Shown one piece after another: positions 51,195 through 60,186 of a stretch of 64,000 bases of DNA. Both the position numbers and the translations under genes were made by a program. The notes beneath the pieces were generated by a model that ran no database searches, was not told the origin of the DNA, and worked only from the letters and a program-made list of their open reading frames with translations. Source of the DNA: Coleofasciculus sp. LEGE 07092. GTDB taxonomy: Bacteria; Cyanobacteriota; Cyanobacteriia; Cyanobacteriales; Coleofasciculaceae. The stretch's first letter is position 1; each line of letters opens with the position of its first letter. The stretch spans positions 1 to 64,000 of the forward strand of contig NZ_JADEWY010000018.1 in NCBI RefSeq assembly GCF_015207375.1, given 5' to 3'.

Positions 51195-51645
51195 TAGCTT
51201 CAAGCCAATGACTAAGCTGACTTTTTTTGACAATTTGTTGCGCTAAAGAAGCGGCATCGGCGACTAGGGAAGGAAGGGGAAATTCAAAAATCAATGACTC
51301 TTCTAGGAGTTCGATTAATCCCCAATTCGCTAGGGTTAGCCCTTCGGCTAAAGCGGTTGTCAGAGAAATATCTCGCTGTGTCGAGTGGTAGTAGAGGAGT
51401 TGCTCCAAGGGCAATTCCTCCAATATTTTGGCAGGAAGAGAGGATGAAATCATGTTGATAGCCTGCTGGATATCCATGTGTGAAATCATGGCTTTAATCC
51501 GCAAGCCCAAGCATCCTAGATATTCATCAGCATCCTCGATGGGAGATTGGTTTGTTGGCAATTCAATGGCGGTTATAGTTTGGATAACCCTTTCTGAACC
51601 GCGAACAATCTGAGCGGAGGAAGGAATCCAATAGGAATTAATCAT
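51157..51645 (-). CDS. Hypothetical protein, free-standing paralog of the overlapping frame at 55656-56135
   Basis: I start at ATG 51645 (MINSYWIPSSAQ), which overlaps the upstream stop in ATGA and has GAGAGGATA upstream; the longer frame to 51675 has none. The 162-residue product is helical. It shares with the 55656-56135 product, in the same order: YWIP/YWMP, TAIELP/TAVEVP, EYLGCLGLRI/EYLQLLGLRV, NWGLIEL/HLGLFWT, FEFPLPSL/VRFPVPVL and HWLEAIN/EWLGAMR. Length is almost the same (162 versus 159). Function unknown. It is translationally coupled to the module protein upstream. Confidence 0.7.
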   Translation of the reverse strand: MINSYWIPSSAQIVRGSERVIQTITAIELPTNQSPIEDADEYLGCLGLRIKAMISHMDIQQAINMISSSLPAKILEELPLEQLLYYHSTQRDISLTTALAEGLTLANWGLIELLEESLIFEFPLPSLVADAASLAQQIVKKSQLSHWLEAINLAYREISSFV

Positions 51646-52085
51646 AGTTCTATATCCTCTCTTTGTTGTGGGCATTCTTCAGGTTCGACCTCCCTATTTT
51701 GTTTGAGATGAGGAGCTAAATTTTCCTCCAGTTGCTCAACATAGTCTTCAGAGAGGTCAGACCCTTGGTCTTTCCACGTTCCATCCTTGTCCTGAATGGC
51801 ATTGAGAGTTTCCGCGCCCTTAACCAACAATCTGTTCCCTTCTAGGGTAGCGATGTTGTTAACCCCCTCTAATTGGTTTGTCCCGGCTTGCTTCATGGCT
51901 TCAACTAGAAGAGGAGCGGCTTTCTCAACTCGCTCTTGCTGAGCAATATTTTCCTGTTGCTCTTGTGAGGAATGAACGTCTTCAAAGTGCTGAAGGGCTT
52001 GCCCTAATTGGGCGACTTTAGTATTAGTAGTTTCCTGAGCAAATGTCTTGCTACGCTCGGATAAGGAAGCAATTAAACCTGGCAT
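51642..52085 (-). CDS. Small helical protein with plasmid beta module
   Basis: The 147-residue product has an N-terminal coiled-coil region (about 5-55) and a C-terminal module (about 60-135): EKAAPLLVEAMKQAG, LEGNRLLVKGAETLNAIQDKDGTWK and SEDYVEQLEENLAPHL. The same order (helix, GxxY/GNR strand, D-x-L strand, WxDxGS, helix) is seen twice in the 59131-60186 protein and once in 49186-50139. No known function. Inverted-repeat copy C lies about 32 bases upstream of its ATG. Confidence 0.6.
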   Translation of the reverse strand: MPGLIASLSERSKTFAQETTNTKVAQLGQALQHFEDVHSSQEQQENIAQQERVEKAAPLLVEAMKQAGTNQLEGVNNIATLEGNRLLVKGAETLNAIQDKDGTWKDQGSDLSEDYVEQLEENLAPHLKQNREVEPEECPQQREDIEL

Positions 52086-54664: not shown

Positions 54665-57600
54665 ATGGGAGTAACTGACAGACAACGACATCACCTTCGT
54701 ACCTCACTGACGAATCATTTTCTCTCTGGTCAGGGATTCGACTCCATCAGTGCTGCCCGGACGTGGGCATCCCAGGAACTAGGACAAGAAACGGAGTTTG
54801 CACCAGGGAGTGCAAATGCTAAAGCACTTGAAGAAACGATTGAAGAGAGCCTGGTTCAGGCAGGTCGCAGGCTGATTGAGGCTGGAGACGACCCAAAGAC
54901 AACCTATCGAAACCTTGTGGATTTGTATCAGCGTCAGCCCAAGCTGGCAACGAAAAGCAGTGGTAGTGTAGCCCGACAAGCGTATTCAACGCCGTTGCCA
55001 GTGGCTTACTTGGCATCAACGATGGCAGGAATTGACCTACAGGGTACTGTTTACGAACCCGCAGCGGGGAATGGGGCGCTATTGATGGGTGCTAACCCCA
55101 TGAAGGTGACGACGAATGAAATTGACCCTGACCGCGCCAGGGCATTGCAAGACCAAGGGTTTAATCCAACAATCCAGGATGCCACAACCTATAAGCCAGA
55201 GCAAAAGCACGATTTTTTAATAGCTAATCCGCCTTTTGGCAGCGTCCGCGATGAGGATAACCCTAAGCCGAATGCTAAAAAGCAGTGGCAGTTTGGCAAA
55301 TTGAAAACTAGCCAGATTGACCACGCTATCTGCCTCAATTCTCTAGAGGCGCTCAAAGACGACGGGAAAGCTGTGTTGATTATTGGCGGCTTAATGGGAG
55401 ATGACCCAGTACAGCGCAGCGATCGCTATAATAGCCTCTCCAATCGCGGATTTTTCAAGCAGCTTTACGATAACTGGAGAGTCACCGACCATTTTACGGT
55501 TAGTGGTGAGTTGTACTCCCGCCAGGGGGCAGGCTTTCCCATTGATATGATTCGCCTCGACGGGCGGGGCAAAAGCCCTCGCCCCTATCCGGCTGCTGAT
55601 GTGCCGCCAATCTATCACAGCTTTGAAGAGTTAGAACAAGAGGTTTTATCGCGTTATGTATCTAGAGAACCCGAATTATTGGATGCCAACCGAAGAGCAG
55701 AGAAAGAAGGAAATGCCGATGCTGTACTTCTGGACGGCAGTAGAGGTTCCCGCTTCGATGAAGTCCATTCCCACGATGAGCGAGTATTTGCAACTGCTGG
55801 GGTTGAGAGTGGCGTGGTTGATTCGCCAAGAACCCCCTTCAGACGCACAGCTCCTGATTCGAGAGGAGATGCCCCTAGGGATGCGGGATGGGATTCTGGA
55901 CGTACTACGGATGCCTCCCAATCCCAACCCCGATTCTTTAGCTCAAGCTTGGGCGAGGGCGTTGGTAGTAGACAATCCGGCAATTCGCAATCATCTGGGG
56001 CTTTTTTGGACGGTGAGATTCCCGGTGCCAGTGCTGAAGGAACCAGAGCAGATAGACGAAGCCAGGGAATTAATACAAGGAATGGCACTAGCCGAGTGGT
56101 TGGGAGCGATGAGGGCAACACCAATCGAGTTCTAAAGGAGGAGAAAATGATGGACAACAAAAATAGTCGGGATTTGCAAGTTCCTTATCAGCCTTTAAGT
56201 CAGGGAAAGCCCCTTAATTCTTTAGTTCCCAAAAATATGTCTGTGGGGATTAGAAATTCTCTGGAGCGCGTGGAAGAGCGACAGGGCAACATTGATGATT
56301 ATGTCGCCTCCGAAATGCAATGGTCTCTTGATGAATTGTATAACAAATTAAGTGCTGAACAAATAGATGCTTTGGCGTTAGCTCTAGATAATAATGAGCA
56401 GGATGCCGAAACTATCCTAGGGGATATGACGGGGATTGGTAAGGGTCGTGTGGTGGCTAGCATGATTCGCAAAGCTAAGCTAGATGGGATGAACCCCATA
56501 TTCGTGACAGAAAATCCCAATCTCTACCGGGATATGCTCAGAGATTTAGCCGATATTGGGGAAGACATTAACCCTTACTATACGGATTCTCAACTCAATC
56601 TGGATACCCTTGAGGGGGGCAAAATTAACTATTCAGCCAAGCAACACAAAGCGGCAGAAGAAACTATATTAAGCACGGGAAGTTTAGGGGATTTTGACAG
56701 CATTTTTACTACCTATTCCCAGATGCAAACCGTTAGAGGGCAAGAACCGGATAGGCGGCAAATTTTACGCAAGTTTGCTCCGGAAGGAATGCTGATTATG
56801 GATGAATCCCATAACGCTGGGGGCAGTGGTGGGGATTTGTATACCCGTTCGGGAATTCCCAATCGAGCTGGCTTTACTCGTGAGCTGAAGCAATCAGCCG
56901 CTCGGACATTTTCGTCCAGCGCTACTTACGCTAAGCGACCGGAGGTGATGGATCTTTATAACCGCACTGACATGAAGAAAGCGGTAGAAGATATTGATAG
57001 CTTGGTGGGAATTATCCAAAATGGTGGCGTTCCCATGCAGCAGGCGCTAGCTTCTCAGTTGAGCGAAGCGGGGCAATACATTCGTCGCGAACGCTCTTAT
57101 GAGGGAGTTGATTTTGATCATACCATTTTCCCGACTGACCGGGAAATGACTGATAGTGAAGCGCAAGTGATGCAAGCCATCATGCAGTTTGACCGTGCAA
57201 AAAATGAGAAAGTTTCGCAGATTGACGAGGAACTTAAAAAAGAGGCAAAGCAAATCCAAGGGGATAGTGCTGTTGGTCAGGTGGGAGCTGAAAGTATAAA
57301 TTTTACCTCGTTGATGCATAATTATTTGGATGCATCAAATCTGGCTAAAAAAACGCAAGGTGCTATCGATTTGGCGAAAGAGTCTTTAGAAAGAGGAGAA
57401 AAGCCAATTCTCACGGTTAGCAATACAATGGGCAGTTTCTTAAGCCAATACGCTGATGAGAATGGGCTACAACCGGGTGAGCGCATTAACGCTGATTTTG
57501 GGGATATGCTCAAGCGATATTTGGAGCGTAGCCGGGATGTTATTACCAAAGATGCATTTGGGGAAAGCAATCGCCGTCGTCTGACTGATGAAGAGTTGGG

Positions 57601-59212
57601 GGAAGCCGGGATACAAGCGTACTCTGAAGCTATCGATCTAATAGAAAAGTCTGATTTCAGTAAGGTTCCTATTAGTCCGATTGACAATATTCGCTTTCAA
57701 CTAAAAGAAGCTGGGTTTAAAACCGGAGAGATTACCGGACGTGACGAGCGGGTGCGTTATGAGCGTGATGAGCAAGGTAATTTAGTAGGTTTTTATGATT
57801 TGCGTCCGGCTTCTGAGAGTTCAAGAGCAGGGAAAGCTCAAGCCGTTGACCAGTTCAACAATGGGGACTCGGATGTGTTAGTCCTTAATCGTTCGGGAGC
57901 CACAGGCATTTCACTGCATTCAAATCAACGATTCAAAGACCAACGCCGTCGCCACATGATTGTGGTACAGCCAGAACGGGATGTCAACCAGGCGGTGCAG
58001 ATGTTTGGTCGGGTTCATCGCACCGGACAGGTCAATGCTCCTCACATCACCATTGGTGCTGGGGATAATCCCAGTGAGAAACGGACGATGGCGATTTTGA
58101 TGGGAAAGCTGGCGTCGCTCAATGCCAATACCACTGCCAGTCGCTCTGGGCAAATTGATTTTGAGAAAGCTACGGATTTTCTCAACGAAGTAGGCGATCG
58201 CGTGGTTCATGAGCTGGTAAGTAATGACCCGGAGCTGGAAGATAAATTGGATTATCCGCTCAAACCTGAGAGTGAGATGGAAGGAACCGCACGGCGGGTA
58301 ACCGGACGCATGGCAATGCTTACCTTGGATGAGCAAGAAGCCTTGATGGAGCGGATTGAGTCTGAATACAAAGATACGTTATCGAGGGAAATTGCCATGG
58401 GCAATAATCCCTTGGAGGCAGAAACTCTGGATTTGGATGCTAAAACGGTTGCATCCATAGAAGTGCAACCCCCCGATCCTGATTCCACCAGTCCGTTTAC
58501 AGGAGCGGTGATTTTCGACGTGATGGACGTGAAAAACAACCGTCAGCCGCTAACGACAATGGAAGCGATGAATGTCGTGCGGTCTGAGTTAGGGTTGGAG
58601 TCGGTGTCTGAACCCGAAGATTTTGACCGAGAAGATGTTGCGGTGGCGGGACAGGAGAATAGCTCTTTGTTAATGGAGCAAATTGATTCGGAGGCTTGTG
58701 ACTGGAAACAGCAGCGCCAAGGCTTATTTAAGACCCAGAATGCCAAGGAAAAGTTTGAAGATAAAATTAATCAGCAAGCCCAGACAGTTAAATGGATTTT
58801 GGAAACACTTCCAGTCGGGCAGACTGTTAAGTTAAAAGCGCCAAATAATTCGGTCTATTATGGTCTGGTAGCAGGGCATCGTTGTGAATCGGCTTCTGGA
58901 GAGAATCCGGTTTCGCCTTCATCGTGGAAGACGGAATTTCTCTTAGCGGATTCAGCCAGACAGATTTCAATTCCCCATTCAAAAATTGGGAATCGCTCTG
59001 GGCAATATGCTGTAGAAGTTCAACAGCAGGATGATTTTGAGGGCAAGGATATTTATTCGCTGTTTGATGAGCGCTCTGGTAGTGGTCGTGAGCTACGGGG
59101 GATGTTCCGGGGGAATCTAGTACGGGCGGGTTGTATGCTACTGGGGAAGATACAGCGCTGGCACGGGAGATGCTGGGGCAAGAGTTACCTGATTTGGAAG
59201 CTCTTTCCTTAG
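54665..59212 (+). CDS. DNA adenine methyltransferase fused in frame to a strawberry-notch-like helicase
   Basis: The open frame encodes 1515 residues. Residues 100-330 are an N6-adenine methyltransferase: EPAAGNG (131-137) binds SAM and NPPF (188-191) is catalytic. Residues 331-490 are a low-complexity linker rich in Ser, Gly, Arg and Asp. From about 495 a helicase of the strawberry-notch/SNF2 type follows: GDMTGIGKGR (about 588), MDESHNAGG (about 711), SGATGISLHSN and MFGRVHRTGQ (about 1090-1125). Such fusions occur in phage and plasmid proteins like P1 DarB, where protection of entering DNA is the known role. The linker is overlapped by another frame, and a strong internal start exists at 56147. 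Confidence 0.8.
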   Translation: MGVTDRQRHHLRTSLTNHFLSGQGFDSISAARTWASQELGQETEFAPGSANAKALEETIEESLVQAGRRLIEAGDDPKTTYRNLVDLYQRQPKLATKSSGSVARQAYSTPLPVAYLASTMAGIDLQGTVYEPAAGNGALLMGANPMKVTTNEIDPDRARALQDQGFNPTIQDATTYKPEQKHDFLIANPPFGSVRDEDNPKPNAKKQWQFGKLKTSQIDHAICLNSLEALKDDGKAVLIIGGLMGDDPVQRSDRYNSLSNRGFFKQLYDNWRVTDHFTVSGELYSRQGAGFPIDMIRLDGRGKSPRPYPAADVPPIYHSFEELEQEVLSRYVSREPELLDANRRAEKEGNADAVLLDGSRGSRFDEVHSHDERVFATAGVESGVVDSPRTPFRRTAPDSRGDAPRDAGWDSGRTTDASQSQPRFFSSSLGEGVGSRQSGNSQSSGAFLDGEIPGASAEGTRADRRSQGINTRNGTSRVVGSDEGNTNRVLKEEKMMDNKNSRDLQVPYQPLSQGKPLNSLVPKNMSVGIRNSLERVEERQGNIDDYVASEMQWSLDELYNKLSAEQIDALALALDNNEQDAETILGDMTGIGKGRVVASMIRKAKLDGMNPIFVTENPNLYRDMLRDLADIGEDINPYYTDSQLNLDTLEGGKINYSAKQHKAAEETILSTGSLGDFDSIFTTYSQMQTVRGQEPDRRQILRKFAPEGMLIMDESHNAGGSGGDLYTRSGIPNRAGFTRELKQSAARTFSSSATYAKRPEVMDLYNRTDMKKAVEDIDSLVGIIQNGGVPMQQALASQLSEAGQYIRRERSYEGVDFDHTIFPTDREMTDSEAQVMQAIMQFDRAKNEKVSQIDEELKKEAKQIQGDSAVGQVGAESINFTSLMHNYLDASNLAKKTQGAIDLAKESLERGEKPILTVSNTMGSFLSQYADENGLQPGERINADFGDMLKRYLERSRDVITKDAFGESNRRRLTDEELGEAGIQAYSEAIDLIEKSDFSKVPISPIDNIRFQLKEAGFKTGEITGRDERVRYERDEQGNLVGFYDLRPASESSRAGKAQAVDQFNNGDSDVLVLNRSGATGISLHSNQRFKDQRRRHMIVVQPERDVNQAVQMFGRVHRTGQVNAPHITIGAGDNPSEKRTMAILMGKLASLNANTTASRSGQIDFEKATDFLNEVGDRVVHELVSNDPELEDKLDYPLKPESEMEGTARRVTGRMAMLTLDEQEALMERIESEYKDTLSREIAMGNNPLEAETLDLDAKTVASIEVQPPDPDSTSPFTGAVIFDVMDVKNNRQPLTTMEAMNVVRSELGLESVSEPEDFDREDVAVAGQENSSLLMEQIDSEACDWKQQRQGLFKTQNAKEKFEDKINQQAQTVKWILETLPVGQTVKLKAPNNSVYYGLVAGHRCESASGENPVSPSSWKTEFLLADSARQISIPHSKIGNRSGQYAVEVQQQDDFEGKDIYSLFDERSGSGRELRGMFRGNLVRAGCMLLGKIQRWHGRCWGKSYLIWKLFP
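55656..56135 (+). CDS. Overlapping gene in the methyltransferase-helicase linker, paralog of 51157-51645
   Basis: The 159-residue frame is offset by one base from the 54665-59212 frame. Its product is a well-formed helical protein: NYWMPTEEQ, TAVEVP, SEYLQLLGLRVAWLI, REEMPLGMRDGILDVLRM, NHLGLFWTVRFPVPVL, ELIQGMALAEWLGAMR. It matches the free-standing 51157-51645 protein in order, spacing and length, while the other frame is low complexity here. The TAA at 56133-56135 runs straight into AAAGGAGGAG for the helicase. AAGAGG lies 12 bases before the ATG, a weak site; reinitiation from the methyltransferase could help. Function unknown. Confidence 0.7.
   Translation: MYLENPNYWMPTEEQRKKEMPMLYFWTAVEVPASMKSIPTMSEYLQLLGLRVAWLIRQEPPSDAQLLIREEMPLGMRDGILDVLRMPPNPNPDSLAQAWARALVVDNPAIRNHLGLFWTVRFPVPVLKEPEQIDEARELIQGMALAEWLGAMRATPIEF
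56134..56149 (+). promoter_or_regulatory. Strong internal ribosome binding site and in-frame ATG for the helicase
   Basis: AAAGGAGGAG is followed after about five bases by ATGATG (56147), in frame with the helicase. Translation here would give a helicase of 1021 residues (MMDNKNSRDLQ). The site overlaps the stop of the 55656-56135 gene, the arrangement of three consecutive coupled genes. Confidence 0.75.
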
Positions 59213-60186
59213 ACTCGTTACAGCAGGCACAGCAACAGCTTGCTGAAGTTTCCACTACAGTTCAATCGGAGGAGCTAGGAGAGGCAGAACGTCAAGGGAC
59301 ACAGACATCTGCAAAAGAATCGGAATCCATTAGCGATAGGGTAGCGCAAGTTAAAAAAGCGAATGAGCAATTCCCACAGGAACAACAACAACCCGAACCT
59401 TCTTTACCTACTGCTGATGTTGATACCGAGGAAATTGAAGCAGTTGAGGAAGGTGAGGCAGAAGGTAAAGGACTCCGTGACAACCCCGACGACTTCCAAC
59501 AGGAGAAGAAGCCTAAGCCTGAGTTAACTCAACCCGCCGATTGGCAAGAGCGGCAGCAGGAACGTGTAGAAGCTATTGCACCTGTTGTCTACCGACATCT
59601 TAAAGACCTGGTTGGTGGCGATCGCTACTGTGGTTCTCATCATACGGCAAGTTTGGATAAAGATGAGGAGGGGCAGCGTCTGATTGTGACAGAGAATCAA
59701 TCCTCCCAAAAGATTCTGGAGGCGCGGCAAAAGAGTGATGGTTCGTGGCACGATATCGATAGTAACTTGGATGACAACAACGTTCAGCATTTTAGGCAGA
59801 TAGCCGCCTCGCAAGAGGAACTCCTGTCAAAAAAAGGTGCGATTGAGGATAAAGTTGAGCAGCAGAATCGGGTTGATAAGATGGCTCCCACTATCGTCAA
59901 ACACCTGAGCTTGGTGAATCGGCTCTCTGTCAAGGGGAACTCTTACAGTTCTAAATTAGACCCAGAAAAATCAGAGTTAACCCTATCTGAAAACGCCACA
60001 GAAAAGCCGATTTTAAAGGCAAGATTTATCCAGGATAGGTGGCGAGATAATGGCAGTGAAATTGATGAGAAAACTCTAGAGTTTTTTGAGAACTCTGTAA
60101 AGCCCAAGGTTGAGAAAGCGTTGGCGCAGCGCTCTCAACGGGAACGCCTTGAACGGCAAGAAAAAGAGGCACAGTATAGTCTGTAG
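59131..60186 (+). CDS. Acidic protein with two copies of the plasmid beta module
   Basis: The frame opens at about 59092 and its first usable start is TTG 59131 (LYATGEDTALAREML), overlapping the helicase end by 82 bases. The 351-residue product has an N-terminal helix, an acidic disordered part (about 45-130), and two modules: about 145-225 (VEAIAPVVYRHLK, DKDEEGQRLIVTEN, GSWHDIDSNLDD) and about 245-330 (VDKMAPTIVKHLS, VKGNSYSSKL, DRWRDNGSEID). The start is uncertain; a frameshift from the helicase or later ATG (REML) is possible. Role unknown. Confidence 0.6.
   Translation: MYATGEDTALAREMLGQELPDLEALSLDSLQQAQQQLAEVSTTVQSEELGEAERQGTQTSAKESESISDRVAQVKKANEQFPQEQQQPEPSLPTADVDTEEIEAVEEGEAEGKGLRDNPDDFQQEKKPKPELTQPADWQERQQERVEAIAPVVYRHLKDLVGGDRYCGSHHTASLDKDEEGQRLIVTENQSSQKILEARQKSDGSWHDIDSNLDDNNVQHFRQIAASQEELLSKKGAIEDKVEQQNRVDKMAPTIVKHLSLVNRLSVKGNSYSSKLDPEKSELTLSENATEKPILKARFIQDRWRDNGSEIDEKTLEFFENSVKPKVEKALAQRSQRERLERQEKEAQYSL

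Follow-up and report, generated by a model that had tools for sequence, protein, structure and literature searches.

In the embedded class of phage spanins, Rz/Rz1, an entire gene is nested out of frame within its partner gene, and the two spanins act together. An embedded spanin arrangement has been described for phage JC1 (PMC9144972), and overprinted orphan genes of E. coli, where a protein gene overlaps another in a different frame, are reported as single, recent and lineage-restricted cases (PMC4683798, PMC5810103). The DNA methylase-helicase dyad of polyvalent proteins, with P1 DarB as its archetype, has been described by Iyer et al. 2017 (PMC5512222), and the gene examined here resembles it in joining an N6-adenine methyltransferase to a downstream SF2/Strawberry-notch ATPase within a single polypeptide, as found on conjugative and phage elements. 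Within the linker of this dyad lies a second gene, termed X, which like Rz1 is nested in its entirety out of frame but differs from the spanins in being longer, in being predicted to form a soluble, folded domain, in lying over a disordered interdomain linker and in having an enzyme dyad as its host. X is comparable to the overprinted E. coli genes in its overlap with another reading frame, but unlike them it occurs on viral contigs and in several bacterial phyla, with its members sharing 17-35% identity. No nested gene in polyvalent dyads was found in the main text of PMC5512222, and no description of X was found in the openly accessible literature. In P1, no ORF, DarB included, was matched by the dyad profile and there was likewise no match to X.

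The window, the whole stretch of 64,000 nucleotides that was analysed, corresponds to contig C244 in a cyanobacterial assembly of 6.7 Mb, and the coordinates of its features are collected in Table 1. The dyad methyltransferase is recognized by Pfam (N6_Mtase at residues 178-240, 2.6e-05) and has its NPPF motif at residues 188-191 (55226-55237), and the helicase is recognized in the same polypeptide (AAA_34 at 560-828, 7e-22; Helicase_C_4 at 1021-1186, 7.7e-25); the linker comprises residues ~326-505. The dyad has a type IV coupling protein, a MobA/VirD2 relaxase, a weak TrbI match and a topoisomerase as neighbours, which marks this as a conjugative element. A 444-aa protein with a Csx3-like stretch is also encoded on this conjugative plasmid (62647-63981, + strand). 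A second complete dyad of 1972 aa, with its own nested X, is present in the same genome (C156:4220-10138). The window dyad is without ~140 residues that are found in the C156 copy, and its remainder runs on in another frame (59115-59212 / 59131-60186). This deletion and frameshift near 59131 may be real or may be an assembly error, and suggests that the window copy may be decaying or less active than its relatives; X is intact.

Table 1. Features of the dyad locus in the window.
Feature	Position	Strand	Basis or remark
Host gene, N6-adenine methyltransferase / Strawberry-notch SF2 helicase dyad, 1515 aa	54665-59212	+	Pfam and alignment
Dyad part, methyltransferase	~54665-55639	+	
Dyad part, linker	~55640-56179	+	
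Dyad part, helicase	~56180-58570	+	
Frame-0 Ser/Gly/Arg/Asp linker of the dyad	55640-56179	+	Kept open and Cys-free by selection
Displaced C-terminal part of the dyad	59131-60186	+	Comparison with C156 copy
Nested gene X, 159 aa, ATG to TAA, predicted compact helical protein	55656-56135	+	+1 frame relative to dyad
In-frame TAG shutting the X frame upstream	55632-55634	+	
AAGAGG, weak Shine-Dalgarno-like stretch	55638-55643	+	12 nt before X start
AAAGGAGGAG, strong Shine-Dalgarno	56134-56143	+	Overlaps X stop codon; followed by ATG 56147 in helicase frame
Stand-alone distant X paralogue, 172 aa, 26% identity	51157-51675	-	Outside any dyad, 4 kb from X

The position of X, its length and its one-base shift against the dyad are exactly as a preliminary description of this DNA had claimed. 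Owing to the upstream TAG, the X frame is open only from 55635, over the linker alone. Most relatives carry AAGGAG 4-7 nt before the X ATG, and the site in the window is weaker. The compact helical protein proposed for this frame is borne out by a structure prediction that gives a confident, mostly helical fold (pLDDT 92.9, pTM 0.89), for which five rows from annotated records were left out of the alignment. Six columns of X are near-invariant: W9, P11, V29, R51, P123 and W148. When 64 members were scanned against Pfam, NCBIfam and PHROGs, no family match rose above threshold (isolated E values of ~0.003-0.008 only), and a comparison of X with PDB sequences gave nothing significant. A structural search of the model against PDB and BFVD gave a best Foldseek E above 2, the sole structural row being CENP-N with Z 2.8 over 65 residues. 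X is best described as a predicted compact helical domain with no known relative detected in these searches.

The X copy at the same place in the second dyad of the genome is 75% identical, and that of a Chroococcidiopsis plasmid 31%. A further X lies on plasmid pAQ6 of the laboratory cyanobacterium Picosynechococcus sp. PCC 7002, at about NC_010480.1 101013-100510 on the minus strand. The stand-alone paralogue in the window is overlapped by its neighbour at 51642-52085 (- strand). All of the cyanobacterial dyads examined first possess a +1 ORF in the corresponding position, 150-260 codons long, and a scan for dyads yielded 75 genome and 80 viral loci. Among 158 loci having both domains, frame 0 is open throughout in 154 and a long +1 ORF is present in nearly all, the +2 frame usually being short; in 144 the +1 ORF has a start codon near the methyltransferase end, across cyanobacteria, Desulfovibrio, other bacteria and viral contigs. 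This start is ATG in 138/144 loci, most of them with a Shine-Dalgarno motif. An iterated profile search joined 122/148 ORFs into one X family, and profile comparison linked the viral X group to cyanobacterial X (E 3.6e-11) and, weakly, short nested ORFs of ~95 aa to the family (probability 84.6%). In a blind profile search of 293 genomes, every X found was nested between methyltransferase and helicase save for the stand-alone copy of the window. Related proteins are many, and no relative was found in which X is broken while the linker is kept. Rather than a one-off of a single plasmid, X is the rule in one large dyad clade, on plasmids and phage-like contigs. The expectation that annotation misses the gene held as well, Gloeobacter morelensis alone among the relatives having X annotated (WP_230844304.1), with the host gene truncated in exchange and the helicase begun after X.

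On the helicase tree, dyads from Pseudomonas, Xanthomonas, Bordetella, Vogesella and an Acinetobacter phage form a supported clade without X, whereas X is widespread in the remainder, where several rows scored as lacking it are partial contigs or do hold X-like ORFs. The tree is rooted for drawing only, so that both a gain of X in the remainder and a loss in the other clade are possible. On viral contigs the dyad forms part of proteins 3.7-3.9 thousand residues long, an arrangement also known from phage polyvalent proteins (PMC5512222); one of the proteins also has an LPD38 domain and another lies beside a match to a DNA-ejection protein. Several loci depart from the common layout. In a Leptolyngbya locus (L052), X lies in the helicase frame, apparently after a frame change, representing a natural X-helicase fusion or a sequencing error. 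In Leptolyngbya boryana and a relative (L015 and L090), the usual order is reversed, with the helicase match upstream of the methyltransferase match in one very long gene. In the Persicobacter plasmid pPP10 (L187, 2881-7757), the methyltransferase and the Strawberry-notch helicase are encoded by two neighbouring genes that overlap by 4 bp, and X was not seen.

The out-of-frame protein was suggested to be the conserved one of the two, and this is so along the full length of its overlap with the linker. Between the C156 and window copies, X is 75% identical and the linker 41.5%, with mismatches of 0.21/0.14/0.53 at the three codon positions of X. Across 521 pairs, mean identity is 67% for X and 51% for the linker that these bases encode in frame 0, X being higher in 521/521 and having its third positions most variable in 508/521, a protein-like pattern. 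Non-redundant pairs exhibit 61% against 44%, with X higher in 156/156, and because pairs are not independent a disjoint set was made, in which 41/41 pairs likewise show higher conservation for X. The start site is similarly constrained. The nested ATG imposes NAT-GNN on frame 0 and is retained even though the residue encoded there differs among the 105 loci (N 38, D 29, Y 20, H 13). Lys-Glu just upstream of the X start is written AAG-GAG in 45/54 loci, compared with 10/115 at other sites of these genes (Fisher p 3e-22), and lies 4 or 7 nt before the X ATG; this amounts to a ribosome-binding site embedded in the methyltransferase coding sequence. When the linker codons were shuffled, the +1 frame stayed open in <=0.1% of trials. 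These sequence patterns indicate that X is a genuine, ancient nested gene under protein-level selection.

The linker had been considered a possible mere by-product of overprinting, a reading that was not upheld: its sequence is poorly conserved, yet it is open in 154/158 loci, and against an expectation derived from the X proteins and host codon usage at 105 non-redundant loci it has 0 frame-0 stops where 765 are expected and 2 Cys where 322 are expected. At the same loci, Trp (14 vs 74 expected, ratio 0.19) and Tyr (66 vs 293, ratio 0.23) are depleted, and Gly, Glu and Asp are above expectation. In the window, a synonymous shuffle that keeps X and its codon usage gives a mean of 5.0 frame-0 stops against 0 observed (P<=0.001). 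T occupies 9% of X third positions and 24% in the flanks. Linker identity is only slightly higher than that imposed by X alone (0.60 vs 0.56), which, together with the lack of stops and the few Cys, shows that selection on the linker acts on composition and openness rather than on sequence. The dyads as a whole contain little Cys (0.10% at the 105 non-redundant loci vs 0.95% in other window ORFs), a pattern that the linker fits and that is perhaps tied to translocation between cells. Its composition thus marks the linker as a flexible, open, Cys-free, aromatic-poor tether that is under its own selection, and with X conserved in the other frame, both frames are selected.

That no second protein exists, the +1 frame being open by composition or the DNA being constrained by RNA structure or another cause, is extremely improbable. 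A chance-open +1 frame has a P of up to 0.3 at single loci in GC-rich relatives, and an antisense ORF is also open in the window (55654-56160); the latter, however, is not conserved, being just 79 codons long in the C156 copy, and a composition artefact is ruled out by the shuffles and codon positions. The codon-position pattern of X, its better conservation in all disjoint pairs, profile homology at 20-35% identity, the synonymous codon bias at its start site and the confident predicted fold all argue for a protein. It is very unlikely that the linker is untranslated and that methyltransferase, X and helicase are three genes with frame 0 open by accident. In the window, the ATG at 56147 follows AAAGGAGGAG in the helicase frame and is a possible internal start giving a helicase-only product of this copy, unconserved in relatives; the annotation that begins the helicase after X in Gloeobacter and the adjacent, separate enzyme genes in Persicobacter also favour separate genes. 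The depletion of stops and Cys in the linker and the fusion of frame 0 in 154/158 loci, phage proteins of 3.7-3.9 thousand codons among them, speak against this. A separate helicase start is likewise not supported as a general rule, the downstream ATG of many Nodosilinea relatives falling outside the helicase frame.

X could also be produced fused to the C terminus of the methyltransferase through programmed +1 frameshifting, with AAGGAG as a frameshift stimulator as in prfB, given that the X frame opens few codons from the methyltransferase end and that a Shine-Dalgarno-like stretch lies just upstream. Against this, the start codon is conserved despite the varying frame-0 residue that it overlaps, and the 4 or 7 nt between GAG and ATG are a usual distance for initiation. 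Frame 0 also lacks a stop at this point, and one X gene stands alone outside a dyad; frameshifting is accordingly considered unlikely. The main rival is a real if less favoured possibility: X may be an effector in its own right, for anti-defence or another task, that is housed in the linker to save space or to be co-inherited and does not act on the dyad. Dyads belong to early-transfer conflict proteins (PMC5512222), a stand-alone paralogue is present in the window, and no homology between X and the dyad was detected, all of which would fit such an effector. The near-absence of X away from the dyad suggests dependence instead, although linkage alone could yield the same pattern.

As a whole, the locus is probably best explained by X being a nested, out-of-frame and internally initiated gene for a dedicated partner of the dyad. 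Going by sequence, X is almost certainly a translated and selected protein, whereas its role as a partner of the dyad, suggested by co-occurrence, is evenly balanced. The partner role is proposed on the grounds that X hardly ever occurs apart from the dyad, whether on conjugative plasmids or in polyvalent proteins of phages; neither a motif nor a fold match hints at an activity. Ribosomes on the long mRNA would in addition start at the internal X ATG and so produce X as a protein of its own, of 10-25 kDa, beside the dyad. X would then bind the dyad and hold the methyltransferase or the translocase in check or, alternatively, keep the dyad competent for delivery with the transferred DNA. More tentatively, and with slightly less than even confidence, X may be the founder of an ancient family with a new fold that is near-exclusively overprinted in plasmid and phage dyads, and that, translated from the same mRNA, regulates the dyad or acts as its chaperone while DNA is transferred.

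As a rule, long nested genes of bacteria are isolated cases, young and disputed, whereas the X family has been kept nested across cyanobacteria, several other groups of bacteria and viral contigs, with measurable selection in both frames that extends to a Shine-Dalgarno sequence within host codons. The X loci therefore offer a clean, many-times-replicated system for testing the upkeep of dual coding, and they mark a disordered linker as a natural site for overprinting. X also represents a component of DarB-like DNA-transfer proteins that had gone unannotated. If the proposed partnership is true, one stretch of DNA would encode a structured regulator together with the flexible tether found in that regulator's own target.
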